Under the pieces are notes generated by a model, which saw only the letters and a list, made by a program, of their open reading frames with translations, searched no databases and was not told where the DNA came from. Below, piece after piece: positions 5,257-25,965 of a DNA stretch of 31,411 bases. Position 1 is the first letter of the stretch. Every line of letters begins with the position of its first letter. The translations under genes and the position numbers were made by a program. Source of the DNA: a virus; IMG/VR virus record IMGVR_UViG_3300037963_004089, positions 1 to 31,411 of that record; one strand, given 5' to 3'.

Positions 5257-5257
5257 T

Positions 5258-5265
5258 ACTAAATA
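5258..5265 (+). promoter_or_regulatory. Possible late promoter variant ACTAAATA for the exported trio
   Basis: ACTAAATA on the plus strand, 27 bases before the ATG at 5292. It differs from the N-A-TAAATA late form at the second base. The same variant with C precedes genes at 9956 and 13549 at 22-25 bases. A TATACT at 5278-5283 is an alternative -10. Confidence 0.4.
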
Positions 5266-5291
5266 AAGCCATAGAATTATACTACAAATTT

Positions 5292-5789: not shown

Positions 5790-5801
5790 GGTTAAATAAC
5801 A

Positions 5802-12535: not shown

Positions 12536-13549
12536 TCAAATGACTTCACTTAAAATTTTCATCGATGCTTCTTCACCCATTTGTTGCATAACGTAAGTCG
12601 CTTCTTCTACAGTCTCTGCATGACCTTCAGCGATAAGATAATCCACCATATATTCATAATGAGAGTTGATGCGAGTCATCATTCCACCACTAGGATTTCT
12701 AAATCTGTTTAAAGCAACATCAGTTCTAAAAGTTGATGGTTTAGTTAATAATTTCTTATCTAATGCAACCCACCAAGGACGACCTGTTCCTTTGCTTGAC
12801 GGTTTTGTTTCTTTTGGTGGTTTTTTATTATCAGCATCAGTATTTGTTTCCGCAGGTTTTGTTTCTGCAGGTTTTGTTTCCGCAGGTGAATCAGATTGTC
12901 CTGGACCATCATTTCCAATCTTTGGATCGTTAGCACCTGGGAACAATCCTGCCTGATTTAAACCATAACCAAGACCAGCAGCAACAAGAGCAGTTGCTGT
13001 TAATTTTCCTGGTTTAGACTTGAGAATTCCACCTGGTCCACCTGGTTTTGTGGGTTTAGTTGGTTTTGTAGGTTTGGGTGGTTGACTTGCAGTCTGTTGC
13101 TGCTGCTGAGATGTTCTACTACTCTTTGGTTTTGGTGTAGTAGATTTAGGTGTTGTTGTTGGTTTTGGAGTAGGACCTTTCTTAAGAAGACCTAATCTTT
13201 CTGCAAGTCTTCTTGCTGCAGCATTATTTTTTATAAACTTTTTCAATGCAGCAGGACTCATCTTACTCAACATCTTTGCGAGAACATTCTCTACGATAAG
13301 TTCAATTTGCTCTTCATACAAAAGAACTTCCTCATCAGACATTTCATCTACGACACTCTCTGAAAGCATTTCAGAATCTGCCTGCTCGTAGATAAATTCA
13401 AAGTCTTCATCTTCAGCACTTTCAAGAAACTGAATGATTGACTCTACATCATAACCCTCTCTCAACATCATGTATAAGAAAGGAACCATCTCTTCTACAA
13501 TCGCATTCACACCCTCTTCAAGGGCATGTTGAGAGATATAGATATGCAT
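12536..13549 (-). CDS. Probable virion-associated protein of 337 residues
   Basis: It has three parts. The acidic helical N-terminus (residues 1-100) includes MVPFLYMMLREGYDVESIIQ and SAEDEDFEFIYEQADSEML. A low-complexity basic Pro/Lys/Thr region follows (about 125-175, with a QQQQQ run and KPTKPTKPTKPGG), then a hydrophobic patch (TATALVAAGLGYGLNQAGLF) and an imperfect ETKPAETKPAETN repeat. The C-terminus has YMVDYLIAEGHAETVEEATY, a short helical module that I associate with cyanophage structural proteins. It lies at the end of a late block behind proteins with capsid-targeting-like N-termini, so an internal head protein is the best guess. CTAAATAA lies 25 bases upstream of the ATG. Function not proven. 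Confidence 0.65.
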   Translation of the reverse strand: MHIYISQHALEEGVNAIVEEMVPFLYMMLREGYDVESIIQFLESAEDEDFEFIYEQADSEMLSESVVDEMSDEEVLLYEEQIELIVENVLAKMLSKMSPAALKKFIKNNAAARRLAERLGLLKKGPTPKPTTTPKSTTPKPKSSRTSQQQQQTASQPPKPTKPTKPTKPGGPGGILKSKPGKLTATALVAAGLGYGLNQAGLFPGANDPKIGNDGPGQSDSPAETKPAETKPAETNTDADNKKPPKETKPSSKGTGRPWWVALDKKLLTKPSTFRTDVALNRFRNPSGGMMTRINSHYEYMVDYLIAEGHAETVEEATYVMQQMGEEASMKILSEVI

Positions 13550-13573
13550 TTTTACTATTTCTATTCTATCTTA

Positions 13574-13581
13574 TTATTTAG
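13574..13581 (-). promoter_or_regulatory. Possible late promoter variant (G)CTAAATAA
   Basis: On the minus strand, 25 bases before the ATG at 13549, overlapping the stop codon of the 619-residue gene. Same C variant as at 9978-9985. Confidence 0.35.
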
Positions 13582-15433
13582 CGGAGGCAGATTTCTTGAA
13601 GTCCGAAACTCTCTTAATACGCGCTTTCTCATCTCTATCAGCATAATATTTTTTCGCCATATCAGCGAGACCATGACCTTTTACAATATTTAAACCAAAC
13701 AGTCCAGAACCTTCATTTGATCTTGAGAATTGTCTTCCAAGTCTTTCAAATGGATTTTTCGCAGTATATGCTTTAGATTTTGCCAAATTACCAGCTTTGA
13801 ATGTTCCACTCGTTGGATCAAAAGTTCCAATCCTCTCTTTCTTGACTCTAGGATCATAGATGACTGCTTGATTGCCTTTTCTATATTTGACTTTATCTAC
13901 AGCAGTGCCTCTTTGAGAAGCAAGATTTGCTTGTTTCATCCATTTCTTTTGTGCGTCTGTAGCACCAGCAAGTGCTGTAAAGGTCTTATCTGCCAATGCA
14001 GAACCTACAGAATAACCAGCAACGCCACCGACAAGACCGCCACTAGCACCTACAGCACCTCCTACAAGACCTCCAGCTGCCCTTGCAGCACCTCTCAACC
14101 ACGCTCTAGTGTCACTAGCACCCGCCTTTTTAGCGTCCTCACGACCTTGTACAACGTCGAATCCAGCACCTAAAGCACTGAGAGCACCACCAGCAACTCC
14201 ACCAGCAGTTATCTTAGGTACTTTTACTTTAGGTGCAACTGCTGCTTTAGTAAGTGCTTGAGGTTTAGGTGGGGCAGTAACTTTAGGTTGTACAGCAGGT
14301 TTAGGTGAAGTTCTTAATGCCTTTAAAGTTGCTTGTTTTTGTGCCGCAGTTCTTCCACTAGTTGCAAACTGTGCAAAAGTTTTTGTTCCTGTAGGTCTCT
14401 TAGTAGGAGATAAATCAGTTACTCTAGTAGTTCCGCCAGTAACTTTTGCTTTTGAAACTGTTGGTTTAGTTGGTGTTGGTGCTCGGAAGTTGGGTTGTTG
14501 TTGAGGTTGAGGTGTATATTTACCCCTCATCACATCTTGAGTAAAAGTAGAAAATCCTCTTGTTGGTTGTGGTGCTGATACTTTAGTTGATGGTTTTAAT
14601 ACTGGCGGTTTAGTGGATGCTTTAGGTTTAACCTTTAATTCTTTTATTTTTGTCTTTGCTTCAAGATCTGCTTTTACAGATGCATATGAACGTGGAGATG
14701 CTTGTCTTTGTGCTCTTCTTCCAGTCTCACCTTTTGGTGTTTCCTTTGGTGGAACATAAGTTGGTTTTCCTTGTGCATCAACACCAGTTGGTTTACCAAA
14801 GAATTTTGTTCCAGTTGCTTTTAATTGTTCCTTTGTACGAACTGCTTGTCTTTGCCAATCAGCATAAGCATTGCTCTTAACACCAGATGCTTTTACATCT
14901 GCAGGTCTTGCTTGACGATATCTTTGACCTCTTCCAGATTTTGCTGTTTCTCCACCAATCAATTCCTCACCAGAAGGAGTTTTTCTACCACCACCAAGAA
15001 TATTAGATGCTGCTCTTCTAGCTGTGGGATCCGTTCCTTTACGACCCCTAAGATCATCAGCAACTCTTCTCTGTACTTCAGGATCTGGTTTACCAAATCC
15101 TCTTACTTGACGTTGTGTCCTTGAAGAAGATGGTTGAGTTCCTCTTTTCTTTTGTTTTGCATCTATTTCACCAAATGCTTGTTCTGGTGTTTTGTCTCCA
15201 AGAACAGTTCCACTAGGAGCATTAGTTTCAAAACCAATACCTTGTTGAGGTGATTGAATTACCTGCCTAGGACCTCGCGATGGAGTTTGATATTTCTGAG
15301 GATTATCTATTTTTGCTTTTGCTTCTCTTTTATCAAAAGGAGTGGTACGAGTTCCTTTAACACCACCTTGACCACCCTTTCTACCGTAGTCTCCACGTGT
15401 TTTTTCTGATATAATTCTTTTAAATGTAGACAT
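13574..15433 (-). CDS. Large basic, disordered probable internal head protein
   Basis: A protein of 619 residues, rich in Lys, Arg, Thr, Pro, Gly and Gln over its first 400 residues with no stable-fold signal. A Gly/Ala zipper region follows at about 420-500 (ITAGGVAGGALSALGAGFDV, AAGGLVGGAVGASGGLVGGV) and a small folded tail (NQAVIYDPRVKKERIGTFDP). The N-terminus MSTFKRIISEKTRGDYGRKG has the hydrophobic-x-Glu pattern (ISE) seen at gp21 protease sites in T4. The strong positive charge fits packing with DNA. AAGGGA lies 8 bases before the ATG. It is in the late block started by the TATAAATA at 16495. The Gly zipper could insert in a membrane on delivery. Confidence 0.68.
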   Translation of the reverse strand: MSTFKRIISEKTRGDYGRKGGQGGVKGTRTTPFDKREAKAKIDNPQKYQTPSRGPRQVIQSPQQGIGFETNAPSGTVLGDKTPEQAFGEIDAKQKKRGTQPSSSRTQRQVRGFGKPDPEVQRRVADDLRGRKGTDPTARRAASNILGGGRKTPSGEELIGGETAKSGRGQRYRQARPADVKASGVKSNAYADWQRQAVRTKEQLKATGTKFFGKPTGVDAQGKPTYVPPKETPKGETGRRAQRQASPRSYASVKADLEAKTKIKELKVKPKASTKPPVLKPSTKVSAPQPTRGFSTFTQDVMRGKYTPQPQQQPNFRAPTPTKPTVSKAKVTGGTTRVTDLSPTKRPTGTKTFAQFATSGRTAAQKQATLKALRTSPKPAVQPKVTAPPKPQALTKAAVAPKVKVPKITAGGVAGGALSALGAGFDVVQGREDAKKAGASDTRAWLRGAARAAGGLVGGAVGASGGLVGGVAGYSVGSALADKTFTALAGATDAQKKWMKQANLASQRGTAVDKVKYRKGNQAVIYDPRVKKERIGTFDPTSGTFKAGNLAKSKAYTAKNPFERLGRQFSRSNEGSGLFGLNIVKGHGLADMAKKYYADRDEKARIKRVSDFKKSASAK

Positions 15434-15434
15434 T

Positions 15435-15824
15435 TCAATTTCCCTTCAGTTGCTTTTCTTTATCTCTCAGACGCATTTGTCTGTAAACATAATCACCAAG
15501 ATGAAGACCTAAAGCAGCAGCACCAGCATAAGGGAATAAACCTCTTCTAGGCATCAATGCTGCAGCAGCACCAGTCGCTACAGAACCCATATGTCCTTTA
15601 TTTCTTTCTCCTTTCTCACCCTTCATAACATTCTGACCCGCATCATAAGCACCAATGCCACCAACAATTCTTCTTCCACGATCACTTCCAAGAGTGGCCT
15701 TTGCACCCTTCCATGCTAAGTTTCCAGTACCACGAATAAGTTTGGCGGCAAGAGAACCGAGTCCCTCATCTAAGTTTTCTCTAGCGGAGTAAGACTCTCC
15801 AACAAAGTCCTTATACGATTTCAT
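15435..15824 (-). CDS. Probable internal head protein with capsid-targeting-like N-terminus (129 residues)
   Basis: The N-terminus MKSYKDFVGESYSARENLDE closely resembles the T4 internal-protein targeting peptide (MKTYQEFIAEA) and the next gene upstream. The rest is small, basic and Gly/Ala-rich with a hydrophobic hairpin-like part (GSVATGAAAALMPRRGLFPY AGAAALGLHLGDYVY) and a charged end (QMRLRDKEKQLKGN). A processing site for the head protease would be VGE near residue 10. It has its own late promoter AATAAATA 20 bases upstream. Delivery with the DNA into the host is an inference. Confidence 0.7.
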   Translation of the reverse strand: MKSYKDFVGESYSARENLDEGLGSLAAKLIRGTGNLAWKGAKATLGSDRGRRIVGGIGAYDAGQNVMKGEKGERNKGHMGSVATGAAAALMPRRGLFPYAGAAALGLHLGDYVYRQMRLRDKEKQLKGN

Positions 15825-15842
15825 TATCTACTTTGTTTTTAG

Positions 15843-16475
15843 TTATTTATTAGTTTTAAGTGCAGCAACTTTCTTATATCTGTCAGACTCTTTCTGAGTC
15901 CAGTCACCTTTGGTCCACTTTCCTGTTGCCTTATCCAGTTTACCCTGAACACCACCTTTACGTGCTAGAACAACACTTGAAGGTTTGGGTCTAGGTGCTG
16001 GTTGAGATGGTTGAGATGGTTGAGTTGATGATGCTGGTTTAGATGGTTGAGATGGTTGAGTTGATGATGCTGGTTGAGTCTTTGATGGTTCTGTTTGTGA
16101 AGCAGATGCAGTACCAGTTCCAAGTGCTGCCTTAGTTGCCATATCGATTCCACCTTCAATGGCACGATTTCTGGCGTTTGGAGCAAAGTTTCTTGCAACA
16201 CTCTGAGTTGCAGAAGCACCTCTTGCAAGGTTTCTACTAGCACCGAGTGCTCTTGCACCCTTAAACGCAACGCCTCCAGGAACCACTCCCAGAGCGTCTA
16301 ATGCAGCATCACCATACTTTCCTTTCTTTAAGTTTTGTGCTGCACTATAAGCAGAATATGCACTCAGTCCCATACTCGCTAACTTTGCAGCACCTATCAG
16401 TGCCAGAGGTATTGCTTCTTGAATATTTTCCCTAGCAGAATGGGATTCTTCAATAAATTGAGTATACGTCTTCAT
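15843..16475 (-). CDS. Probable internal head protein with capsid-targeting-like N-terminus (210 residues)
   Basis: MKTYTQFIEESHSARENIQE matches the T4 IPII/IPIII signal MKTYQEFIAEA at seven of the first ten positions. It is followed by an Ala-rich helical domain (IGAAKLASMGLSAYSAYSAA), a basic region, a Ser/Gln/Pro repeat of 8-12 residue units (STQPSQPSKPAS repeated about twice, residues 135-165) and a C-terminal Lys/Trp module (GVQGKLDKATGKWTKGDWTQ). The DNA behind the repeat is nearly identical between units, so copy number may vary among relatives. It is the first gene after the late promoter at 16495-16502. Confidence 0.72.
   Translation of the reverse strand: MKTYTQFIEESHSARENIQEAIPLALIGAAKLASMGLSAYSAYSAAQNLKKGKYGDAALDALGVVPGGVAFKGARALGASRNLARGASATQSVARNFAPNARNRAIEGGIDMATKAALGTGTASASQTEPSKTQPASSTQPSQPSKPASSTQPSQPSQPAPRPKPSSVVLARKGGVQGKLDKATGKWTKGDWTQKESDRYKKVAALKTNK
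15844..15851 (-). promoter_or_regulatory. Late promoter AATAAATA
   Basis: On the minus strand, 20 bases before the ATG at 15824. It overlaps the stop codon of the 210-residue gene. Confidence 0.6.
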
Positions 16476-16494
16476 CTTAGTCGGACTTTTTTAG

Positions 16495-16502
16495 TATTTA
16501 TA
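16495..16502 (-). promoter_or_regulatory. Late promoter TATAAATA opening the head-protein block
   Basis: Exact late consensus on the minus strand, 20 bases before the ATG at 16475. Its first bases are the end of the T run of the nrd terminator (16502-16528), so the two elements are fused. Confidence 0.75.
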
Positions 16503-16528
16503 AAAAAAGGAGGGAATTACCCCTCCTT
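16502..16528 (-). terminator. Rho-independent terminator of the primase-nrd operon
   Basis: AAGGAGGG and CCCTCCTT form a perfect 8-bp stem with a 6-base loop, followed by T residues on the minus strand. The stop codon of the 45-residue gene lies in the loop. Confidence 0.88.
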
Positions 16529-16654
16529 ATCCAAATCTTCAAATGCTTGATATCCATCATAATCACCAAACAGAAAGGCGTCTGATTTCGCCGCCTCTCT
16601 GTATGCTGCATATGAATCAGAGACTGAATCCTGAGAAAGTGTCTGCTTTAACAT
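16517..16654 (-). CDS. Small acidic protein of 45 residues after nrdB
   Basis: Reads MLKQTLSQDSVSDSYAAYRE then AAKSDAFLFGDYDGYQAFED LDKEG. It overlaps the end of nrdB by 38 bases in another frame. GGAGGA about 9 bases before the ATG argues that it is translated. It is acidic and aromatic and has no membrane segment. It is the last gene of the operon, its stop lying in the terminator loop. A role linked to ribonucleotide reductase is possible but only from position. Confidence 0.65.
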   Translation of the reverse strand: MLKQTLSQDSVSDSYAAYREAAKSDAFLFGDYDGYQAFEDLDKEG

Positions 16655-17759
16655 CTTGCTTGATTCCTCCAACGATGTAGGATTCAACTTCTGTTTCTTG
16701 TGGTGCCACTTGAAGACCTTTAGAAGAGATCCAGTGCTCTGTCCAAGGAAGTGGATTATTCTTTGCAGGTATATCATAAGTTGGTTTAAGTCCGATTGCT
16801 TTCATTCTACGATTGGCAATCCATTCAACATACTGTTGTAACAGTTTGTCATTCAAACCAATCATTGAACCATCCTTGAACAGATATTCTGCCCAAAGTT
16901 TTTCCTGATTAACACAGTTTTCAAATGTGCTAATCAACCATTGCTCCTCTTCCTTGAAGATTTTCTTCATATCAGGGTCATCACCTTCACGCCACTTTTT
17001 CAGAATATTCTGAGTAATAGCAAGATGCTGATTCTCATCACGAGCAATCAGAGAGATGATTTTTGCACTTCCTTCCATAAGTTTGAGTTCGCCAAATGCA
17101 AAACTGCAAGCAAATGATACGTAAAAGCGAATACCTTCAAGAATATTAACGTTTGCAACTGCTCTGAAGAGTTTGCGCTTGAGTTCATACCTTTCGTCGA
17201 GTGCGTAGGGAACTTGTTCTAGTGCTTGCTGCCACTGAGTGGAATTATCATAAAAATGTGCAGCATTAATAAAATCATTATATGCCTGAGTCACGCTCAT
17301 GGCACGTTCTACGATACGATCATCATTCAGAATGTGGTCAAACACATCTGAAGGGTCTGGATAAATGTTCTTGATGATATGAGTATATGAACGACTGTGA
17401 ATCATTTCCATGAATCCCCAGACTTCCATGCACGCCTCTAACTCAGGTAGTGAGCAGTAAGGGATAAAAGCCATCCCAGGACCGCGCCCTTGTACACTAT
17501 CCAACATGATCTGGTACTTAAGATTGCTGGTAAAAATGTGCTTTTGCTCTGGGCGTAATGTCTGATAGTCACTGCGATCCTTCTGTAGGGAGACCTCCTC
17601 AGGTCTCCAAAAATATCCTAGTTGTTGTGTTGTGAGTTTGTCAAAGATTGGATACTTGTAAGAATCATATCTTTGAATTCCTAATGGTTTACCAAAAAAC
17701 ATTGGTTGTTTTTTGGTATCAACTTCTTCTGAGTTGAATACTGTCATGGAGTTAACCAC
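16617..17759 (-). CDS. nrdB: Ribonucleotide reductase class Ia, beta subunit
   Basis: A protein of 380 residues carrying the diiron-tyrosyl radical set of class Ia. These are LDSVQGRG (first Asp), EMIHSRSYTHIIKNI (Glu, His and the radical Tyr), LEGIRFYVSFACSFAF (Glu) and LIARDENQHLA (Glu and His). It supplies the radical to NrdA for reducing NDPs to dNDPs. A GTG at 17759 is taken as start because GAGGAG lies 6 bases upstream; the ATG at 17747 is a good alternative and the long GTG at 17801 is unlikely. nrdB starts about 23 bases after the nrdA stop. It belongs to the primase-nrdA-nrdB operon. Confidence 0.95.
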   Translation of the reverse strand: MVNSMTVFNSEEVDTKKQPMFFGKPLGIQRYDSYKYPIFDKLTTQQLGYFWRPEEVSLQKDRSDYQTLRPEQKHIFTSNLKYQIMLDSVQGRGPGMAFIPYCSLPELEACMEVWGFMEMIHSRSYTHIIKNIYPDPSDVFDHILNDDRIVERAMSVTQAYNDFINAAHFYDNSTQWQQALEQVPYALDERYELKRKLFRAVANVNILEGIRFYVSFACSFAFGELKLMEGSAKIISLIARDENQHLAITQNILKKWREGDDPDMKKIFKEEEQWLISTFENCVNQEKLWAEYLFKDGSMIGLNDKLLQQYVEWIANRRMKAIGLKPTYDIPAKNNPLPWTEHWISSKGLQVAPQETEVESYIVGGIKQDVKADTFSGFSL

Positions 17760-17781
17760 TGGTCTCTCCTCTTTGTTCGTC

Positions 17782-20079
17782 TTAAATCTTACAAGACTCA
17801 CACTCTTCCTCCTCTGCTTGTTCTAGTTGAGCGATTAGATTGTCAAGACTTTCTTTGGTTTCTTCAACCTCATCAGTCTTGAAGTCGTATGTGTTTTGAT
17901 AGTATGAAGTCTTCCAACCATATTTGTAGGTGGTTAGAAGATCCTGCGCCATTACGGAGACGGGGACTTCATTTTCTGGATACTGGGTTGGGTTATAACT
18001 CCAGTTGCCGCTGATTGCTTGGTCAAAGAACTTCTGCATAACAGCAACAATATTGATGTAACCACGATTAGACTCCATATCCCAGAGGAGCGTATAATTG
18101 TTCTTAAGAGATGCATACTGAGGAACAATCTGTTTGAGTGGTCCTTTTTTGCTCTTCTTAATGGACAAATATCCTCTAGGTGGTTCGATTCCATTTGTTG
18201 CGTTTGACACAACGGAACTGCTTTCCGATGGCATCTGAGCGGACAATGTTGAGTTCCTAACTCCGTGGGCAATAACCCGCGATCGAAGATTCTCCCAATC
18301 ATAGTGAAGCTCATTCGGAACTATTTCATCTACGTCATGTTTATATGTATCGATTGGCAGAATTCCGTTACCGTATTTTGTTCGGCTGCTATACTCACAG
18401 GCACCCTTCTCTTCTGCAAGATTCACAGTGGACTGAATGAGATAGTATTGGAATGCCTCGGTTAAGTCATGAACAAATTTCCATGCCTCGGTATCACTGT
18501 AGTTTACACCATTCTTAGCAAGATAATGTGCTAAACCGATGTAACCGATTCCAAGTGAACGGCGTGCTTTTGTGGCAATTTCTGCTGCTCTGATGGGATA
18601 GTTTTGGAAATCAATAAGTTCATCAAGACTGCGAACAGCAAGATCGCAAAGAATTTCAAGATCCTCAAGATCCCTAATTTTTCCGATATTGATAGCACTA
18701 AGTATGCAGAGAGCAATTTCTCCGTTTTCATCGTCAATATGCTTGAGTGGTTTGGTGGGGAGAGTAATCTCTTGACATAGATTGCTCATCTCAACTTTAT
18801 CCATAAAAGAAGAGTGAGAGTTGCAGTGATCAATGTTCATGATATACAGTCTACCAGTTTCTGCCCTTTCTTTCAAGAGGTCTAGGAACAGGTCTTGCGC
18901 TTTAAGCGTTTTACGAGGAATTGATCCATCAGATTCATAACCCACATAGAGGTCATCAAACGCATCAGTACCAAAAGCATCATACAGACCTGGAACATCG
19001 TGAGGGCTGAAGAGGGAGATTTCTTCGTTCCGAATAAATCTTTCGTAGAAAAGTTTTGAGATTTGAATCGAATAGTCAAGTTTCCTTACGCGATTGTCTT
19101 CTGTACCTTTATTATTCTTTAGGACAATAATGTCTTCTATTTCTTGATGCCAAATGGGAAAATGGACTGTCGCGCTTCCACCTCTGATGCCGTTTTGAGT
19201 GCAGCATCGGACAGTTGCCTCAAACTTTTTGAGAAATGGGACGACGCCTGTGTGTTGTACTTCTCCGCCTCTGATTTTAGCGTTGATGCCACGGATGCGA
19301 CCTGCGTTGATGCCGATTCCCGCCCTTTGTGCAACGTATCTGCCAATAGCCATATCAGAAGTAAAGATGCTATCGAGGGAGTCATCAACATCAACAAGAA
19401 CACAGCTAGCATATTGTCGAAGTGGAGTTCGCACTCCCGCCATGATAGGTGTGGGAATGTTGATTTTGTGCCTGGAGATTGCGTCATAGTACTTCTTTAC
19501 GTAATCGAGACGTGTTTCTTTGGGATACTTTGAAAAGATGGTAGCAGCAATCAACAGATACATGAACTGAGGTGTCTCATAAACAGAACCACTGCTTCTA
19601 TCCTGGACAAGATATTTATCTACAACCTGACGAAGACCAGCATATGTAAACAAATAATCTCTACTATGGTCAATGAATGACTGGAGTTTAGTAAACTCTT
19701 CCTCAGTGTATAGATTCAGGATTTCTGGATCATAAACTCCCCTCTCTACACATGCCTCTATATGCTCCTTAACAGAGGGATTCTCATGCATACGACCAAA
19801 CAGTTGCTTACGGAGCGCAAACAGCAGCAAACGCGCTGCTACGAACTGATAGTTAGGATGGTCAAGGTCAATCAAATCTGATGCAGAACGAATTAGAATT
19901 TCTTGAATTTCTGCTGTAGTGATGCCATCATAAAACTGAATACCAGATTGCATTTCAACCTGTGATGCTGAAACTCCTGCAAGGTCTTTACATGCTTGCT
20001 CCACCATAACGTGAAGTTTATTTAAATCAAGAGGTTCAGTATTTCCATTTCTCTTGACTACTTTTGTCCCGTTACTCAT
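17782..20079 (-). CDS. nrdA: Ribonucleotide reductase class Ia, alpha subunit
   Basis: A protein of 765 residues, full length for the family. It has an N-terminal ATP-cone-like region (KVVKRNGNTEPLDLNKLHVM). Active-site cysteines are visible in QYASCVLVDVDD, SNLCQEITLP and IALCILSAINIG. The PSESSS phosphate loop is followed by NATNGIEPPRG, the radical-transfer tyrosines are in TSYYQNTYD, and the C-terminal redox pair CESC precedes the end. It reduces ribonucleotides for phage DNA synthesis. The ATG at 20079 has GGAAAA upstream and overlaps the primase stop (ATGA). A TTG at 20091 is not needed. All catalytic residues appear intact. Confidence 0.96.
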   Translation of the reverse strand: MSNGTKVVKRNGNTEPLDLNKLHVMVEQACKDLAGVSASQVEMQSGIQFYDGITTAEIQEILIRSASDLIDLDHPNYQFVAARLLLFALRKQLFGRMHENPSVKEHIEACVERGVYDPEILNLYTEEEFTKLQSFIDHSRDYLFTYAGLRQVVDKYLVQDRSSGSVYETPQFMYLLIAATIFSKYPKETRLDYVKKYYDAISRHKINIPTPIMAGVRTPLRQYASCVLVDVDDSLDSIFTSDMAIGRYVAQRAGIGINAGRIRGINAKIRGGEVQHTGVVPFLKKFEATVRCCTQNGIRGGSATVHFPIWHQEIEDIIVLKNNKGTEDNRVRKLDYSIQISKLFYERFIRNEEISLFSPHDVPGLYDAFGTDAFDDLYVGYESDGSIPRKTLKAQDLFLDLLKERAETGRLYIMNIDHCNSHSSFMDKVEMSNLCQEITLPTKPLKHIDDENGEIALCILSAINIGKIRDLEDLEILCDLAVRSLDELIDFQNYPIRAAEIATKARRSLGIGYIGLAHYLAKNGVNYSDTEAWKFVHDLTEAFQYYLIQSTVNLAEEKGACEYSSRTKYGNGILPIDTYKHDVDEIVPNELHYDWENLRSRVIAHGVRNSTLSAQMPSESSSVVSNATNGIEPPRGYLSIKKSKKGPLKQIVPQYASLKNNYTLLWDMESNRGYINIVAVMQKFFDQAISGNWSYNPTQYPENEVPVSVMAQDLLTTYKYGWKTSYYQNTYDFKTDEVEETKESLDNLIAQLEQAEEEECESCKI

Positions 20080-21047
20080 ACTTTTTTCCAACTGTTAAAT
20101 TTGACTTTTGCTTCTAAACCAGAATATGTATTCAATTTTATCATAGACATAACGTCATGTCCAGCAAGGACCATATCGTTGATGTCTTTCTCTACAATGT
20201 TGTTTCTCCAGATTACTACCTTCTCTCCTCTATCGATGAGTTTGGCGATTCGGTTGACGATTTCTCGGTTACGTGGTTCATTATCAAGAACCCAAATATG
20301 ATCGCCCCAACCAAACGACCGAATATCAACATCGGACCCACACATAGCAACAGAGTTTTCCACGAACGTGGAGTCAAAGGGTCCTTCAACAATGTAAATC
20401 GGTTCTTCTTCATTGATGGTTTCAAGTCCGTATAGTTTCGGAGAATCATCATCCAACATCACAGTGATATATTTAACAGAGTTTGGAGTTAGACTTCTTC
20501 CTTGAAAACCAATAAGATTCTTGCCCGTATTGTACATTGGTATGATAATACGCGGTTCGTCCCTATATGTGGAGTCAAAGGTTTGCTTTTGTGTATTTGA
20601 CCACTCTTTAAATTTGTCAGTGTAATAAAACTTTTCTGGATTGAGTTTTCTTTTTACTAAGTAATTGTTCGCAATGATATTTTCTGATGCTTTTGGTAGA
20701 TTTAATTTTTTCTTAAAGACTGGTTTCTTGAAAGTAAACTCTGGTTCATCAACAACAAAACTACGTCCAGTATGACCCTCCTTGAACTTTTCAAGTGTAT
20801 ATTGCTTATGCAGAGTTGTGTCAAGTTTCTTGATAAAATTATTCAACGACAAACTAGCACCACAGTTATGACACTTAAAGTTGGTATTGTTCTTCACAAC
20901 ATACATATACCCACGACACTTGTTCTTGTTCTTCTGTGAGTCTCCACAGATAGGGCAACGGAAGTTGTACAGGTCAGATTTGACCTTCTTGAATTTTTGT
21001 AGGCGTGACGAAATCAATCCAACGTACTTGGAATCAATCAGATCCAT
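20076..21047 (-). CDS. gp61: T4 gp61-like DNA primase
   Basis: A protein of 323 residues. The N-terminal zinc finger has C31 and C34 (CPICGDSQ) and C59 and C62 (CHNCGAS). A TOPRIM domain follows with YIVEGPFDSTFVENSVAMCG (the Glu of the first motif) and HIWVLDNEPRN (the D-x-N form of the DxD motif). It makes RNA primers for lagging-strand synthesis together with the gp41 helicase, which is encoded 6 kb away. It directly precedes nrdA with a 4-base overlap, tying primer synthesis to dNTP supply. Ten bases separate it from the upstream coiled-coil gene. Confidence 0.92.
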   Translation of the reverse strand: MDLIDSKYVGLISSRLQKFKKVKSDLYNFRCPICGDSQKNKNKCRGYMYVVKNNTNFKCHNCGASLSLNNFIKKLDTTLHKQYTLEKFKEGHTGRSFVVDEPEFTFKKPVFKKKLNLPKASENIIANNYLVKRKLNPEKFYYTDKFKEWSNTQKQTFDSTYRDEPRIIIPMYNTGKNLIGFQGRSLTPNSVKYITVMLDDDSPKLYGLETINEEEPIYIVEGPFDSTFVENSVAMCGSDVDIRSFGWGDHIWVLDNEPRNREIVNRIAKLIDRGEKVVIWRNNIVEKDINDMVLAGHDVMSMIKLNTYSGLEAKVKFNSWKKV

Positions 21048-21056
21048 TACAACAGA

Positions 21057-21443
21057 TCACTTTTGTCTCTCTATTATAACCTGCTGTGGTTCGGGAGTCA
21101 AGAAACTTTGTATCAATTTTTGACCTGGCAAACTAACAAAAAATGATATGACTGTCAAAGCACCGGCAATGGTCCACATCTTCTTCTCCATAATCCTGAG
21201 TCTCTCGTCAATTTTTCTTATATCCCTTTCACAACCTTTCTTTATTTCGTCCGCTCTACGATTAACTTCTCTGTGTACGCTTTCTACCTTCTCAAAGAGT
21301 ACAGCATCAATTCTATCTTGTTTATCTAATTTCTCATTATGAACCGCTAGGAGTTGTCCCATCTTTACAGAATTATCCTGTAAGGATTCTACTACCCTCT
21401 CCAATCTTTCTAGTATAGCAGCATTAACCCCAGCGTCATCCAT
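21057..21443 (-). CDS. Coiled-coil protein with C-terminal membrane helix (128 residues)
   Basis: A long coiled coil from about residue 8 to 90 (AAILERLERVVESLQDNSVK through RDIRKIDERLRIMEKKMW), then one membrane helix (TIAGALTVISFFVSLPGQ, residues 90-108) and a short polar tail. The layout is that of XhlA-like or holin-helper proteins, and of the 88-residue protein at 8531-8797. It overlaps the end of the upstream gene by 8 bases. Function unproven. Confidence 0.68.
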   Translation of the reverse strand: MDDAGVNAAILERLERVVESLQDNSVKMGQLLAVHNEKLDKQDRIDAVLFEKVESVHREVNRRADEIKKGCERDIRKIDERLRIMEKKMWTIAGALTVISFFVSLPGQKLIQSFLTPEPQQVIIERQK

Positions 21444-21645
21444 TTTTCATCCACATCTTACGTGATCCTTTTCCTCCATAAACATATCTTTTCTTCTTTC
21501 TTACAGGAGGATCATCTCCTGCCTCAACTGTTCCAGCTATCTTACCATCGCCAACATTATTTGTTGGACCACTAACGGCACCAGCACCCATCATTTCGTT
21601 CAACTTTTGGTTGCGAATGATGTCAATAATTTTATCGATGTCCAT
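21436..21645 (-). CDS. Small basic protein of 69 residues, probable virion component
   Basis: Begins MDIDKIIDIIRNQKLNEMMG, then a Gly-rich linker (GAVSGPTNNVGDGKIAGTVE) and a conserved-looking basic end (PPVRKKKRYVYGGKGSRKMW). I recall similar small proteins with an 'AGTVEAGD-PPV+KKK+Y.YGG+GSR+MW' tail from T4-like cyanophages, but not their function. TAATG links it to the upstream gene. The basic tail could bind DNA or a capsid subunit. Confidence 0.68.
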   Translation of the reverse strand: MDIDKIIDIIRNQKLNEMMGAGAVSGPTNNVGDGKIAGTVEAGDDPPVRKKKRYVYGGKGSRKMWMKNG

Positions 21646-22016
21646 TAAAGTTCTTCTAATTGCTTTAGACAGTCATAATCTAAAGGAATTCCTGTAATAT
21701 CACTTTTTGGATACTCTGGTATTCTTTTCAGAAAGACAAGGAAACTCTTTATTGATGGCCAGAGTTCCTCCTCCAAGTGATAAAACAACAACGGCACTGC
21801 CGCTTCATCAAAGACGTTAAACAATATAATAAGGTGATTCAATATCAGGTGAATCTTAAGTTCACCTGTATTTTTATATCTCTTCAACAGTCTTTTAATA
21901 TAACGAATCCGTTTTAGGTCAGACTCAAAATCATCCCTAGTAACTGATTGTGGGTTGTTATAAAATTTTATAGCAAAGAGTAGATAGTTACTCTCGTTCA
22001 ATTCATCAAATCTCAT
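21645..22016 (-). CDS. Conserved-looking phage protein of 123 residues, unknown function
   Basis: Starts MRFDELNESNYLLFAIKFYN and is almost wholly helical and hydrophobic/basic (KLKRIRYIKRLLKRYKNTGE-like region, then KIHLILNHLIILFNVFDEAA). No signal peptide. The hydrophobic helices are amphipathic rather than membrane-like. It ends in KQLEEL with a coupled TAATG to the next gene. In T4-like phages, small proteins near gp61 or the head genes are often regulators or assembly factors; none is recognised here. Confidence 0.68.
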   Translation of the reverse strand: MRFDELNESNYLLFAIKFYNNPQSVTRDDFESDLKRIRYIKRLLKRYKNTGELKIHLILNHLIILFNVFDEAAVPLLFYHLEEELWPSIKSFLVFLKRIPEYPKSDITGIPLDYDCLKQLEEL

Positions 22017-22032
22017 ATATTAACCCATGTTA

Positions 22033-22326
22033 TCAGCTGTCTGGGAAGATGGTGTCGTCGGACTGGTCACCAGATGCAATGTTCAGTGCAACAATAGTTT
22101 CAGACTTAACTCTGAGATTGTCGTGCATATCCATGTAAGTTGTGATACCAACCCATCCTTCGTGAGTAGGTGCATATTTACGAGCATCACCAGATGCTGC
22201 ATTTGCTACACCAAGTTCAGTTGCGTCTACACCAAAAATATCAAAGTTGGATGCATCCATACCTTGGTGATGGGTTGTGAACTTTGGCTCGTCACCAGAA
22301 GTATCAGTATTTCCCCAAAGAGACAT
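22033..22326 (-). CDS. Small probable virion protein (97 residues)
   Basis: Begins MSLWGNTDTSGDEPKFTTHH and is Gly, Asp and Thr rich with short strands (HEGWVGITTYMDMHDNLRVK SETIVALNIA), ending in DDTIFPDS. The 'MSLWGN' opening is one I associate with small structural proteins of T4-like cyanophages. A TATAAATA late promoter lies 30 bases upstream and AAGGAAAC precedes the ATG, both consistent with late virion expression. Exact location in the particle is unknown. Confidence 0.7.
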   Translation of the reverse strand: MSLWGNTDTSGDEPKFTTHHQGMDASNFDIFGVDATELGVANAASGDARKYAPTHEGWVGITTYMDMHDNLRVKSETIVALNIASGDQSDDTIFPDS

Positions 22327-22355
22327 GTTTCCTTACCTGTGAATCTTTATAAAGA

Positions 22356-22363
22356 TATTTATA
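22356..22363 (-). promoter_or_regulatory. Late promoter TATAAATA
   Basis: Exact consensus on the minus strand, 30 bases before the ATG at 22326. It directly follows the T run of the terminator at 22363-22386, repeating the arrangement at 16495-16528. Confidence 0.75.
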
Positions 22364-22386
22364 AAAAGTGAGGAATCACTCCTCAC
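22363..22386 (-). terminator. Rho-independent terminator after the 68-residue gene
   Basis: GTGAGGA and TCCTCAC form a perfect 7-bp stem with a 5-base loop and a following T run on the minus strand. The stop codon of the 68-residue gene lies in the loop. Confidence 0.85.
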
Positions 22387-22582
22387 CTTCACGGGTGGCA
22401 ATTGCCTTCTTGACAACTTCCAGTAATTGGTCATCCATATCTGTCTTAGTCAACTTAACCGCTTTACCCAGGATAACAAGACAGATCTCAACCATCTTCT
22501 CACCGAGTTCTTCATTTTCCGGAATGTTTGCAACAGCATCTTTAATAATCTTTGATGCGAGCGGAAGGAGAAATGCTAACAT
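22376..22582 (-). CDS. Small helical protein of 68 residues
   Basis: MLAFLLPLASKIIKDAVANI begins with a hydrophobic helix, followed by an acidic stretch (PENEELGEKMVEICLVILGK) and a second amphipathic helix (MDDQLLEVVKKAIATREGEE). It could be a peripheral membrane or small holin-like protein; no family is recognised. It ends in a terminator whose loop holds its stop codon. The 41 bases upstream (22583-22623) contain no clear promoter. Confidence 0.65.
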   Translation of the reverse strand: MLAFLLPLASKIIKDAVANIPENEELGEKMVEICLVILGKAVKLTKTDMDDQLLEVVKKAIATREGEE

Positions 22583-22623
22583 TGCTTTAGAGCATACAAT
22601 ACTCTATATAGCGACTTAATCTT

Positions 22624-23178
22624 TTATTTTGGAAGTCCCTTTACTCCTTCTCTTTTTAGACGATAATATCTCTTCAGAGCATCTGTAAACATAGGATCAC
22701 CAGGTCTGTAGTCTAATCTATCAACTGGTTGTGGTCCTGCAAAAGATGGTCTACCTTTTTCCACATTTCTCTGCATAACTTGAGCAGCTTCTCTACGCTT
22801 ATTAGCGTCACTAACAGCACGAGGATCTAGATTATTCAATCTATTTTTTTCTCTGGTGGCAGCGCGAGCAGCATCATTTGCCTTGCTCTTACTGAGTCTA
22901 TCCAAGCTAGACTGAGAGGATCTTTGAAGTTGATTCAAATCATCCATAGTTCCATGAACACCCAATCTCTGGTCTTTAACAACATTAGATGCTCTTTGAG
23001 AAATAGCAGATCTTCCAGCGGTTGGTTTTGCTTTTGGAAGTAGACCTTTAACTACCCTAAAAGCTTTTGTACCATATTTTGTACCATATTGAATTGCCTT
23101 GGCACCAAGACTAAGAAGACCTTCATCAATCTGCTTTGATGAATATGCCTGTTCGGCAAACTGTTGAAATGTTTTCAT
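22624..23178 (-). CDS. Probable internal head protein with capsid-targeting-like N-terminus (184 residues)
   Basis: MKTFQQFAEQAYSSKQIDEG resembles the T4 internal-protein signal and the two genes at 15435 and 15843. The remainder is strongly basic and helical (KAIQYGTKYGTKAFRVVKGL, SISQRASNVVKDQRLGVHG-like, then RSSQSSLDRLSKSKANDAAR), with a Pro/Arg tail (PQPVDRLDYRPGDPMFTDAL KRYYRLKREG). The ATG at 23178 is preferred over the GTG at 23187, because AAGGAAA lies about 11 bases upstream and the signal then begins at residue 1. It follows the 421-residue gene by 5 bases. Confidence 0.7.
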   Translation of the reverse strand: MKTFQQFAEQAYSSKQIDEGLLSLGAKAIQYGTKYGTKAFRVVKGLLPKAKPTAGRSAISQRASNVVKDQRLGVHGTMDDLNQLQRSSQSSLDRLSKSKANDAARAATREKNRLNNLDPRAVSDANKRREAAQVMQRNVEKGRPSFAGPQPVDRLDYRPGDPMFTDALKRYYRLKREGVKGLPK

Positions 23179-23183
23179 ACCCC

Positions 23184-24449
23184 TCACTTTCCTTTACTTT
23201 TTTTCTTTTTTTTACTGTAACCTTCCTTATAAAGACTTACAGGTTCCATCTTACCAGTCATTTTATCCATCTTAACGAAAGAAGCAGTCGCCATCTTTTC
23301 GTATGAATCTTCTGCATCATCACCAGTAGCAGCAAGAACTTTTTTACCCATTGATCTCAATTTGTTCTTAAGAACTTCACGGTAAGTTTTATCTGCTCTA
23401 GTATCTTCTTTTTTCTTTTCTTCAGGACCACAGTCCCCACCCATTCCTTCAGAAACAGAATCAGGACATGCTTTCATACCATGTACTTCACAGTCTTTAC
23501 CTTCACCACTGTGAGCACAAGCATCTGCCTTTTTCTTCTCCGCAATCATTTCCATCAAACGACGCTGAGAAATAGACATTTCAACTTCAGTATGTGCGTA
23601 AATTCCTTTACGTACTTTATTCATTTTATCAATATCAGCACCATTTTCAGGCATTACTTTAACAACACCAGTAGAATAGTTATCTACACCAGTGCCAGTA
23701 ATCTTGCCTTTGTTTTGACCTTCAGTTGAAGTGGTTCCATCAACAATCAACTCTTCTTTCATTGCTTTTTTCTTAGCAATTGCTGCATTGATTGCATCAC
23801 GACGGTTATAGATGTACTTATCAGTACCATCTTTCTTACCATCGTTGTTTACATCACCATCTCTCTGTGCTGGATTCTTAGCAACAGGATCCATCTTTCC
23901 TTTCTTACCACGCTCACCTACAGGTTCACCGTGCTCAGTCATTTCAACTTTAAGACCTTTTGCTCTTAAAGCATTGATCTTTGCACGGTCAGCGTATCTT
24001 ACATACGAACGACTAGTCTTCTCATCAGTAACTCTTACCTTATACTTTCTATCACTACCTTCATCTTCATAGACAAATTCTTGTTCTTGTTGATCTTCAA
24101 CGAAAACCTTGAATAATGCATTAGCGACTGATGTAGTTGCACCGTCAGTCATTAATGGAGTATAAGATTCTTTCTTATCACCACCACCATCTTTGCCAAA
24201 CAGTTTTGCTCTAACTGCTGCTTGCTCGGGAGCACTCAAATTACTATTTTGCATATACTGAGAGTATGCTGCTCTCAAGTCAATACCCTCTCTTCTAGCA
24301 CGATATCGGATATCATACACTGCTTGACGGATTCTCTTCTCAGAACCTCCCTCACCACTTTCTTTTCTATCACTACCTTTTGCAGCAACAGGTGCTGCAG
24401 CAGGGGAGTGCTTACGTGCTGGAAGTTCTTCAAATATCTTTTTAGTCAT
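23184..24449 (-). CDS. Probable virion protein with a dockerin-like calcium loop (421 residues)
   Basis: Starts MTKKIFEELPARKHSPAAAP. Key features are a basic helical part (KRIRQAVYDIRYRARREGID), then DVNNDGKKDGTDKYIYNRRD (about residue 205), which has the D-x-N-x-D-G-x-x-D spacing of a dockerin/EF-hand calcium loop. A Cys/His cluster follows at about 310-345 (ADACAHSGEGKDCEVHGMKA, then GGDCGPEE), and a Lys-rich end (GYSKKKKKSKGK). IFE near the N-terminus fits a T4-type head protease site. Overlapping late promoters TATAAATA and AATAAATA (24484-24495) lie 35-39 bases upstream. An internal head protein is likely, and metal binding plausible; function unknown. Confidence 0.68.
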   Translation of the reverse strand: MTKKIFEELPARKHSPAAAPVAAKGSDRKESGEGGSEKRIRQAVYDIRYRARREGIDLRAAYSQYMQNSNLSAPEQAAVRAKLFGKDGGGDKKESYTPLMTDGATTSVANALFKVFVEDQQEQEFVYEDEGSDRKYKVRVTDEKTSRSYVRYADRAKINALRAKGLKVEMTEHGEPVGERGKKGKMDPVAKNPAQRDGDVNNDGKKDGTDKYIYNRRDAINAAIAKKKAMKEELIVDGTTSTEGQNKGKITGTGVDNYSTGVVKVMPENGADIDKMNKVRKGIYAHTEVEMSISQRRLMEMIAEKKKADACAHSGEGKDCEVHGMKACPDSVSEGMGGDCGPEEKKKEDTRADKTYREVLKNKLRSMGKKVLAATGDDAEDSYEKMATASFVKMDKMTGKMEPVSLYKEGYSKKKKKSKGK

Positions 24450-24464
24450 CGGAAGATTTTACGA

Positions 24465-25736
24465 TTACGATTTCCTTATCTTATATTTATTTATAAAGTC
24501 CTTTCCGCTAGACATAGTGCATCCTGGAACCATAGACTGCACATATCTAAAGTGAGAGTCTGTACCAACTTCTCTTTGATTTGCAGGTACACCACCCCTT
24601 TTCGTACCATTGACAACTGATTCATTAACATCTTTAATCCATGCCTTAAACATAATCTTATCTTCAGTAACACAAATAAGATGATTAGCACCTCTACGGA
24701 TGATACGACCAATAAGACCAGTATTCATATTTTCAACTAACTGACCAATTTTAAAGATAGTCTTAGAGACATAATTTTCACGAAGAGTTTGTTGGTCAAA
24801 CTTAGGTGCCATCTCCCAGATACCCCACTCTTCATTAATACCCATTGATGCACGGACAGTATTGAACAATTCTCTTGCATCTTTTGGTCTCATACCCTCA
24901 GGCATTGCAGATTTAAAAGTTCTGAAATCATTTTCTGATGCAGCAAGTCTCAATCTAGATGCAGACATCCCTTCAACTCCATCAGCATCAGGATCTCTAT
25001 CACCAGCAGATAACACCTCAAGATTATCAAACTGATAGAGAGCGCCATTATAATTATTGGCAAGTTTATCAAACTCCTTTACTCTATCAGCACCACCAAC
25101 AATTCTTACATTAGTATATCCATCATTATGTGCTTTTTTCAGCACATCAAAGATAGTTCTTGTATTTACATCGTTCTGAATTCTAGAACTATGAAGAGGG
25201 AACATACCTCTCATAAATGCAACCTTAGTATCAGCATCCAAAGGATTCTTTTTAGGATCATTTGAACGTGAAGGAACAATTAAATAATCACTATCTTCTT
25301 CAGCAGCAACTGCAGCTGCAGTATCCATCAACTGCAAATGTCCTGCGTGAGGTGGGTTAAATCTACCAAATGCAACAGTCAAAGTTCCTTTAGTTTTGGG
25401 AACTGGTGGTGGTCCTGCTTCCAAATCAGGACTAATTTCAACTTGTGGTTGTTCCTCTGGCACTGGTGCTGCCTGCTGTTCAGGAGGAACATCTTGCTGC
25501 AAACCAGGGTCATTGAAGTTTGGATCAGATATATTTTTTTCTAATTCAGTTTGGTTAGGGTCATCCCCACCAACTTTCTGACGCTTATTATAAAACTTTA
25601 ATCTTCCCTTTTCAGTCTTTGCCACAAACTCACCCGTCTGACGGTCATACCAACCACCATGACCATCTCCTTCAAGACCAAGACGTTGTGCCTGCTGAGT
25701 TGCAGATTCGCTTAAAAATTGAAAAAAGGATTTCAT
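24465..25736 (-). CDS. Nucleotidyltransferase with capsid-targeting-like N-terminus
   Basis: A protein of 423 residues. The N-terminus MKSFFQFLSESATQQAQRLG resembles the internal-protein targeting peptide, with LSE as a possible head-protease site, and is followed by a small module (GDGHGGWYDRQTGEFVAKTE). A Pro/Gln linker leads to the enzyme domain, TLTVAFGRFNPPHAGHLQLM (the HxGH motif), with VRIVGGADRVKEFDKLA and MSASRLRLAA in place of the ISxTxxR motif. This is the nucleotidyltransferase fold of NMN adenylyltransferases and cytidylyltransferases. The C-terminus (about 320-423) holds GQLVENMNTGLIGRIIRRGA NHLICVT, a small beta module. The substrate cannot be read from sequence. The ATG overlaps the upstream stop as ATGA. 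Confidence 0.78.
   Translation of the reverse strand: MKSFFQFLSESATQQAQRLGLEGDGHGGWYDRQTGEFVAKTEKGRLKFYNKRQKVGGDDPNQTELEKNISDPNFNDPGLQQDVPPEQQAAPVPEEQPQVEISPDLEAGPPPVPKTKGTLTVAFGRFNPPHAGHLQLMDTAAAVAAEEDSDYLIVPSRSNDPKKNPLDADTKVAFMRGMFPLHSSRIQNDVNTRTIFDVLKKAHNDGYTNVRIVGGADRVKEFDKLANNYNGALYQFDNLEVLSAGDRDPDADGVEGMSASRLRLAASENDFRTFKSAMPEGMRPKDARELFNTVRASMGINEEWGIWEMAPKFDQQTLRENYVSKTIFKIGQLVENMNTGLIGRIIRRGANHLICVTEDKIMFKAWIKDVNESVVNGTKRGGVPANQREVGTDSHFRYVQSMVPGCTMSSGKDFINKYKIRKS
24484..24495 (-). promoter_or_regulatory. Overlapping late promoters TATAAATA and AATAAATA
   Basis: Two late elements overlapping by four bases on the minus strand (TATAAATA at 24488-24495, AATAAATA at 24484-24491), 35-39 bases before the ATG at 24449. 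They lie in the last codons of the nucleotidyltransferase gene. Confidence 0.65.
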
Positions 25737-25948
25737 TGATATCTATTTCTACTAAGAGCAAGAGAAACACTACCTCGGTTTGAGGTAACGTATCTGAGCA
25801 TGTCGTTTTTTATCTTTATATATTTATTCTTTTCTTTGCCCCTACAGGAATCAATTTCCCTTTGAAGAGTCATATAAATGTATTTCACAAACTGCTCATA
25901 GTTTGTCCCATTGAAATCTTCTATGAGTTCTTTAATGTAGGGATTCAT
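25733..25948 (-). CDS. Small basic protein of 71 residues, unknown function
   Basis: Reads MNPYIKELIEDFNGTNYEQF then VKYIYMTLQREIDSCRGKEK, ending in LALSRNRYQ. It is soluble, helical and basic in its second half. It overlaps the nucleotidyltransferase as ATGA, so that the two are probably translated in tandem. A late-type CATAAATA lies only 10 bases upstream and another AATAAATA lies inside the gene (25821-25828), 85 bases before the nucleotidyltransferase start. Function unknown. Confidence 0.65.
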   Translation of the reverse strand: MNPYIKELIEDFNGTNYEQFVKYIYMTLQREIDSCRGKEKNKYIKIKNDMLRYVTSNRGSVSLALSRNRYQ

Positions 25949-25957
25949 CTTTTTGAA

Positions 25958-25965
25958 TATTTATG
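25958..25965 (-). promoter_or_regulatory. Late-promoter-like CATAAATA at the tRNA-Ala 3' end
   Basis: On the minus strand, using the last two bases of tRNA-Ala. It is 10 bases from the ATG at 25948, closer than any other late promoter here, so a leaderless or chance match is possible. Confidence 0.35.

Follow-up and report, generated by a model that had tools for sequence, protein, structure and literature searches.

Capsid-targeting-like N-terminal tags on putative internal head proteins of a T4-type cyanophage fragment and its relatives

Background

The internal proteins IPI, IPII and IPIII of phage T4 carry a capsid targeting sequence (CTS; PMC9026906, reviewing Mullaney and Black 1996). 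This work concerns N-termini of the same kind in a 31.4-kb virus record, IMGVR_UViG_3300037963_004089 (31,411 nucleotides; "the window" means this whole stretch), which represents part of a T4-type cyanophage related to P-SSM2 and S-SKS1. Four of its genes begin with such a tag, three encoding small proteins and the fourth the protein known as T4-GC190 (GC190). Their products are likely to be internal proteins of the head that are made late, brought in by the CTS and trimmed by the protease; they would probably leave the head together with the DNA. The likeness to IPI-III lies in the MKT[FY]xxF start, in an excess of basic over acidic residues and in an [LI]xE within the first 20 residues (at residue 10 in IPII and IPIII, 19 in IPI); after residue 25 the T4 proteins have none, against about 2.4 expected together. 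Unlike IPI-III, the cyanophage proteins have mature parts unrelated in sequence, the tag is also carried by a conserved nucleotidylyltransferase, and some cyanophages have more tagged genes, with 8 forward-strand DNA matches each in AG-345-F15 (GC190 included) and S-SRM01.

Three further systems invite comparison. The T4 ADP-ribosyltransferase Alt enters the head during packaging and is cut there by gp21 (PMC9026906); cyanophages are reported to be without alt (PMC2984593). As with Alt, an enzyme would here be carried in the head and released by a protease; unlike Alt, GC190 is a nucleotidylyltransferase. Alt is not known to have the tagged start. The ejection proteins of phiKZ and SPN3US carry prohead-protease propeptides that are removed by a gp21 relative, and identical N-termini are found there on diverged proteins (SPN3US gp53 and gp54); the window proteins would be alike in these respects. 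However, several of those propeptides exceed 100 residues and the phiKZ motif is S/A-x-E, whereas the window proteins have 10-20 residues and L/I-x-E (PMC5694885, PMC9026906). Finally, virion-associated "regulatory proteins" of cyanophages include NMNAT-like proteins, SAM hydrolase and kinases (PMC10665884, PMC9602691), and the cytidylyltransferase or NMNAT-like protein among them is homologous to 24465-25736. Compared with those accounts, as far as the available parts of both papers extend, the tag would add a route into the head. A literature search of titles, starts of abstracts and part of the listings, with subscription journals outside its scope, met no cyanophage CTS by name, and absence from print is not claimed.

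Tagged N-termini in the window

The sequence-only reading of the window had reported four nearly identical N-termini, and all four were found:

15843-16475, minus strand: CTS-tagged small basic protein, 210 amino acids, N-terminus MKTYTQFIEES, [LI]xE ending at residues 10 (IEE) and 20 (IQE)
15435-15824, minus strand: CTS-tagged small basic protein, 129 amino acids, N-terminus MKSYKDFVGES, VGE at 8-10 and LDE at 18-20
22624-23178, minus strand: CTS-tagged small basic protein, 184 amino acids, N-terminus MKTFQQFAEQA, IDE at 17-19
24465-25736, minus strand: T4-GC190 "cytidyltransferase", 69.7% identical to PSSM2_194 along its whole length, N-terminus MKSFFQFLSES, LSE ending at residue 10

The genes of interest lie in two minus-strand groups with primase, nrdA and nrdB in between. 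The motif MK[ST][FY]xxF was tested on 146 start candidates (the first three ATGs of each open stretch, with at least 60 amino acids remaining) and matched four of them, while 359 permutations of the same motif gave a mean of 0.02 and a maximum of 2. The comparison with T4 likewise held: in the T4 record, IPII and IPIII start with MKTYQEFIAEA. Used as a DNA pattern on 12 records, the motif gave 42 matches against 6 for its reversed form, some of the matches not being genes. Forward and reversed counts were 4 and 0 in the window, 10 and 0 in AG-345-F15, 8 and 2 in S-SRM01, 4 and 0 in P-SSM2, and 6 and 0 in T4, with zero matches in S-SM1, Syn9 and P-SSM4. The GC190 genes of S-SM1 and Syn9 (MKKFSAFLNEA, MKKFSAFLSEA) are missed because the pattern demands S or T at residue 3. 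Nine further GC190-bearing contigs contributed 25 matches against 2 for the control. An initial expression with [EDQ] at residue 10 was dropped, as it missed most AG-345-F15 cases, where protease sites may sit later than residue 10.

Some descriptions of the set needed adjustment. The hydrophobic-x-Glu site expected near residue 10 is present in three of the four proteins, but 22624-23178 has FAEQ there and its site is IDE at 17-19, as T4 IPI has ITE at 17-19. The description "mostly basic" suits the three small proteins (K+R to D+E of 30/13, 22/12 and 37/18) and the gene at 13574 (122/46), applies weakly to 23184 (85/69) and fails for 24465 (55/58) and 12536 (40/47). Likewise, Ala/Gly helices or disorder are not a uniform property, the set including a folded nucleotidylyltransferase.

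The three small proteins have few recognisable relatives. Pfam gave zero matches for any of them (E up to 1), and PHROGs gave weak matches only (best E 0.024), several limited to the first residues. At E up to 10, a collection of 50,697 phage records yielded one partial match for 15843-16475, over residues 1-92 in AG-345-F15, and zero homologues for 15435-15824 and 22624-23178. The protein at 15843-16475 has a Gly/Ala-rich middle and a predicted small C-terminal beta-hairpin/helix, in a poor AlphaFold model (mean pLDDT, the predicted local distance difference test score, 50.0). The Gly/Ala stretch might bring a pretoxin to mind, but this idea has no family match in its favour.

Tagged proteins across cyanophages

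The wider survey covered the window, ten further cyanophage records (P-SSM4 for 1-140 kb only) and 93 stretches of related contigs. Outside recognised T4-GC190, 39 of 9733 distinct starts match MK[ST][FY]xxF, whereas permutations average 0.63; the two largest permuted counts, 26 and 13, belong to motif variants able to match the same starts. These 39 include one piece of a broken GC190, from S-SKS1. A slightly wider motif gave 41 starts and, with that piece removed, 40 tagged non-GC190 proteins: three from the window, seven from AG-345-F15, five from S-SRM01, two each from P-SSM2 and P-TIM68, one from S-SKS1 and 20 from IMG/VR loci, with none from S-SM1, Syn9, S-PM2, Bellamy or the searched part of P-SSM4. 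Beyond residue 25 these proteins fall into 20 blastp clusters with no similarity between clusters (E up to 1e-3), and 38 of the 40 carry a net positive charge.

In T4 itself, gp61.1 (L225 467-631, minus strand; AF158101 18966-19130), a hypothetical protein of 54 amino acids beside primase, starts with MKTFKEFIKED, which is the CTS pattern. It weakly matches phrog_5341, "internal virion protein" (E 0.31), and may from its sequence be an unrecognised T4 internal protein.

Putative prohead-protease sites

The 40 tagged proteins also carry a probable footprint of the prohead protease. At residues 8-25, [LI]xE occurs in 31 of them, compared with a mean of 2.9 and a maximum of 8 in 1000 shuffles. 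After residue 25 the same motif is depleted, with 4 seen against 24.6 expected and none of 1000 shuffles as low; with one protein per cluster, 1 is seen against 9.1. V.E is depleted there too (6 against 12.6), but no depletion is seen for E.[LI], [LI].D, [LI].Q, [LI]E or [LI]..E. In S-CREM2, [LI]xE exceeds expectation in the remaining 213 proteins (479 against 393), and the scaffold protein gp22 is enriched in it: 13 against 5.1 in both T4 and S-SM1, 15 against 5.3 in S-CREM2 and 13 against 7.5 in S-SZBM1. The gene for the protease, gp21, is annotated in the relatives S-SM1, S-CREM2 and S-SZBM1; the gp21 and gp23 genes fall outside this 31-kb window. The N-terminal regions of gp23 in the same three phages carry ILTE or LLTE, resembling what is presumably the cleavage site of T4 gp23, FLTE. 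Depletion of the protease motif in mature cargo would serve as a second marker of life inside the prohead.

The GC190 protein

GC190 consists, in order, of the CTS, a small beta module, a disordered linker, the nucleotidylyltransferase domain and a C-terminal part:

25707-25736, minus strand: CTS, residues 1-10, MKSFFQFLSE, conservation assessed in 63 distinct N-termini
25581-25703, minus strand: small beta module, as modelled
24834-25391, minus strand: nucleotidylyltransferase domain, from PF01467, the model and fold search

Conservation was assessed on 80 viral loci, the best of at least 589 matches and chosen by best overall match, which contain 63 distinct 16-residue starts. Among these, K2 is kept in 63, F4 in 62, F7 in 63, L/I8 in 60 and E10 in 61, and residues 5 and 9 are free; the full pattern MK.F..F[LI].E fits 74 of the 80 loci. 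A lack of conservation in the first 12 residues would have counted against the CTS reading, but in these loci M1, K2, F4, F7, [LI]8 and E10 are each present in at least 60 of the 63. In T4 IPIII, residues 4 and 7 set targeting and residues 8 and 10 processing (PMC9026906). That the conserved GC190 positions 4, 7, 8 and 10 match these determinants supports the CTS reading.

The enzyme is recognised by PF01467 (32.4 bits, cut-off 21) and has a CTP_transf_like domain and a nucleotidylyltransferase fold. VIA-align gave Z 14.0 against PPAT (root-mean-square deviation 2.9, 155 residues aligned) and Z 12.6 against NadD (3.4, 164 aligned). Foldseek placed the two near a tie (E 1.9e-5 and 4.1e-5), with FAD synthetases also among the matches listed. 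The VIA-align comparison leans towards PPAT; as modelled, GC190 is a nucleotidylyltransferase of the PPAT/NadD kind to which the fold search assigns no substrate, NMN, NaMN and phosphopantetheine being among the candidates.

The modelled small beta unit recurs in other proteins. A hidden Markov model (HMM) of GC190 residues 12-52, searched against 219 S-CREM2 proteins, found ORF12 (open reading frame 12; E 1.3e-11) and the kinase ORF14 (E 4.4e-9), which has two copies; the next S-CREM2 protein had E 0.13, and the best of 4380 shuffled control proteins E 0.0053. In the window and in nine further records, phrog_3561, the family to which ORF12 belongs, likewise matches GC190 within its N-terminal part; 11 of the 13 records searched show some match to this family.

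In S-CREM2, ORF12 and ORF14 lie at L212 7704-10313 and 10579-12846, and ORF12 is annotated as Cas9-like with no Pfam match (E up to 0.1). The GC190 homologue of S-PM2 (AJ630128 104232-106749) is split into parts about 1.8 kb apart with a long reading frame between them, and that of S-SKS1 (HQ633071, L012, 72012-73234) appears as two tblastn pieces with no coding sequence in the GenBank record.

Published virion mass spectrometry

Orthologues of GC190 have been detected by mass spectrometry (MS) in virions of S-SM1 (PMC3037559), S-SCSM1 (as NMNAT-like; PMC9602691), S-SZBM1 (as cytidylyltransferase; PMC9146016 Table 1) and S-CREM2 (cytidylyltransferase ORF154; PMC10665884 Table 3). The S-SCSM1 orthologue starts with MKSFLQFLKEA, that of S-SZBM1, one residue shorter, with MRFRQFIIEA, and the diverged ORF154 with MKNFSSFLTEA. 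The S-PM2 virion list is reported without GC190 (PMC3037559); this absence is weak evidence, because seven T4 structural homologues were missed there too. For S-CREM2 as a whole, the strict pattern M..[FYL]..F[LIVMF].E marks five of the 52 proteins that MS detected and none of the 167 that it did not (Fisher P 6.5e-4), the five being the SAM hydrolase, ORF13, the kinase, ORF136 and the cytidylyltransferase. A scan of the first 40 residues also placed a tag stretch at residues 19-25 of the MS-detected ORF12, a hit that is weak by itself, since the same scan matches the undetected ORF71 and the baseplate protein ORF122.

Neighbouring genes and exchange of cargo

Three other genes of the two groups and one variable segment complete the locus:

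13574-15433, minus strand: large basic protein, 619 amino acids, diverged CTS MSTFKRIISE, ISE at 8-10
23184-24449, minus strand: GC191-type protein (phrog_3326), no CTS, I-x-E at 5-7, 46% identity to PSSM2_195 over 420 columns
12536-13549, minus strand: protein of 337 amino acids that lacks a CTS and has an acidic N-terminal part with many [LI]xE
22885-23023, minus strand: stretch inside the 22624-23178 gene where alignment fails with a contig ~99% identical elsewhere, a variable portion of the cargo that follows the conserved CTS

The gene at 13574 had been credited with only the Glu pattern but keeps more of the tag, namely F4, I7, I8 and E10; beyond residue 25 it contains a single additional [LI]xE, where 1.1 would be expected. 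Its relatives start with MSTFKRI[IL]xE in L199, L200, L202 and L203 and with MSTFKRILEA in L210; a relative in L201, 38% identical over the C-terminal part, starts with MKDLKKFLSEA, and the one in L123 has no tag. In a ten-protein comparison, its C-terminus is weakly similar to the CTS-bearing proteins S-SRM01 176324 (E 1.3e-4) and PSSM2_211 (E 0.011). The gene at 23184, for which a Glu pattern near residue 10 had been claimed, has IFE at 5-7 instead and lacks F4 and F7. In related contigs, the ORF directly after GC190 has [IV]xE within its first 8 residues in 60 of 68 distinct starts. Proteins in this position are annotated or listed as virion proteins in two phages: that of S-SCSM1 is similar to 23184-24449 over one 64-column segment, and S-SZBM1 _139 gives no blastp match to it. 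After residue 25, 12536-13549 has 8 [LI]xE where 3.4 would be expected (uncorrected P 0.016). It resembles scaffold gp22 in this and is a candidate processed core protein.

Contig IMGVR_UViG_3300034789_000697 is 98.7-99.1% identical to the window in three blocks covering about 20 kb. Within window 6068-26113, segment 22885-23023 is the sole stretch of more than 100 bases that does not align with it. The two 22624-23178 proteins share 68% identity with identical first 22 residues, while the other 15 genes compared share 93-100%. The 15843/15435 junction measures 219 bases in that contig and 11 in the window. Two further loci (L206 7195-8800 and L208 8831-10640) hold polyprotein-like ORFs of about 500 or 570 amino acids that end in the mature part of 22624. 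Before it comes an acidic linker in which the sites IEE, LNE and LQE cluster; the other [LIV]xE stand near the ORF start. From the variable segment and these fusions we therefore infer that the cargo changes while the leader with its protease sites stays.

Late-promoter motifs

The cyanophage late promoter has been reported as NATAAATA (PMC2984593). This motif occurs 14 times in the window against 7.3 expected, and 2 of 100 shuffles reach 14. None lies within 80 nucleotides of the nrdA, nrdB and primase starts; those near genes of interest are:

16495-16501, minus strand: NATAAATA, 20 nucleotides upstream of the 15843-16475 start
15844-15850, minus strand: NATAAATA, 20 nucleotides upstream of the 15435-15824 start
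24484-24494, minus strand: two overlapping NATAAATA, 35 and 39 nucleotides upstream of the 23184-24449 start
25958-25964, minus strand: NATAAATA, 10 nucleotides upstream of 25733-25948, an ORF overlapping the GC190 start

The gene at 22624-23178, directly after 23184-24449, would share an operon with it.

Interpretation

The proposal of T4-type CTS on proteins from late blocks stands on its conservation, the protease-site footprint, the late-promoter motifs before some genes and the published virion MS, though not for a uniformly basic or disordered set. By sequence, many unrelated proteins share an M-K-x-[FY]-x-x-F tag, mostly followed by [LI]-x-E at residue 10 or within about 10 residues further. 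By T4 precedent, the tag would bind the prohead scaffold core and bring the protein inside; the gp21-type protease of the phage would then cut after Glu, freeing the mature protein, and destroy the scaffold; DNA would be packed around the mature proteins, which would exit alongside it when the phage next infects. These mature parts are variable, mostly basic proteins, together with one conserved enzyme, GC190. Packaging in the head is well supported. The small window proteins would be present in virions, and analogy with T4 suggests that tagged proteins are trimmed by the gp21-type protease and ejected into the host with the DNA; the model is least certain about injection and about any effect within the host.

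Several observations weigh against this reading. Within the footprint, E..[LI] is mildly low after residue 25 (18 against 24.2), 9 of the 40 tagged proteins are without [LI]xE at residues 8-25 (one of the nine has VxE), and neither the window GC190 (4 against 2.5) nor six tagged S-CREM2 proteins (15 against 16.9) are depleted, where folded domains may be protected; the GC190 propeptide, moreover, is modelled with low confidence. The strict S-CREM2 pattern was fixed after some S-CREM2 starts had been inspected, and looser patterns give 5 detected against 2 undetected (P 0.009) or 5 against 1 (P 0.003). In S-SZBM1, three annotated genes have the looser pattern; the 30 proteins listed from MS include 140 but neither 191 nor 192. 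Co-purification is a caution that the MS studies themselves raise (PMC10665884, PMC9602691). The published virion MS comes from other phages, and the small window proteins are without a tblastn match in the MS-tested S-SM1, Syn9 and S-PM2. In S-SM1 and Syn9 the GC190 ORF is the sole one with the looser pattern, and in S-PM2 no ORF has it, the GC190 domain there standing behind a longer unrelated stretch; many tagged cargoes are therefore not a trait of all cyanophages. Location in late blocks, finally, had been claimed for all the genes; the motifs before 15843, 15435 and 23184 agree with it, but 22624, 13574, 12536 and GC190 have no NATAAATA within 80 nucleotides of their own starts.

Among the alternatives, the tagged proteins could assist head assembly as part of the core or scaffold, in place of gp67 and gp68, rather than being injected effectors. 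Both of those proteins are reported missing from cyanophage genomes (PMC2984593), T4 IPIII mutants affect head assembly (PMC9026906), and 12536-13549 and S-SM1_191 have gp22-like acidic parts rich in [LI]xE. However, the protease site is nearly absent from the mature parts of the small tagged proteins, where gp22 has an excess of it, and one cargo gene differs sharply between near-identical contigs. We regard this role taken alone as unlikely, and it may coexist with that of injected effectors.

It is improbable that the tag marks virion proteins for the tail, baseplate or neck, or serves as a chaperone site. Whole-virion MS cannot place proteins, and S-SZBM1 191 and 192 adjoin a virion structural gene; yet in T4 the proteins that begin in this way reside inside the head, and the footprint fits exposure to the prohead protease, which works inside the head. 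Slightly less credible still is that GC190 and other enzymes reach virion preparations as highly expressed contaminants only, which the authors of PMC10665884 and PMC9602691 deem possible: S-CREM2 proteins with the strict pattern were detected in 5 of 5 cases, compared with 47 of 214 without it, and the same GC190 orthologue recurs in four virion studies. Common descent of a young paralogous family, with no targeting role for the shared N-terminus, is very improbable despite close neighbours among the members (15843/15435 in the window; 37844, 38226 and 38614 in AG-345-F15) and nine proteins in one cluster, given the lack of blastp similarity among the 20 clusters, the free variation of GC190 positions 5 and 9 beside fixed 4, 7, 8 and 10, and a like tag on a nucleotidylyltransferase, a SAM hydrolase and a kinase.

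Returning to CTS-targeted internal head proteins, a wider proposal can be made tentatively, and we would not yet back it over its negation. T4-type cyanophages might use a general code for loading the head, in which a short tag that the protease can remove, in some cases joined by a second shared small beta module, delivers exchangeable enzymes and small basic proteins into the host along with the genome. Its cargoes would include the NMNAT/PPAT-like nucleotidylyltransferase, the SAM hydrolase, the kinase, the phrog_3561 protein and fast-changing orphans, and the tag would be a sequence-only predictor of injected effectors. Cyanophage virion MS has repeatedly found enzymes that its authors could not tell from contamination; the tag is a possible entry route into the head for them and flags unknown proteins that may be injected. 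It also hints at which proteins reach the host first and makes delivery at infection by ocean phages testable.

Additional observations

Two observations concern other parts of the window. The N-terminal sequence of 344-982 resembles that of an S-SM1 gene annotated as plastoquinol terminal oxidase. On the plus strand, 5154-6949 holds short Ser/Thr-rich ORFs, some with secretion-signal-like stretches, that are possibly mutual paralogues.

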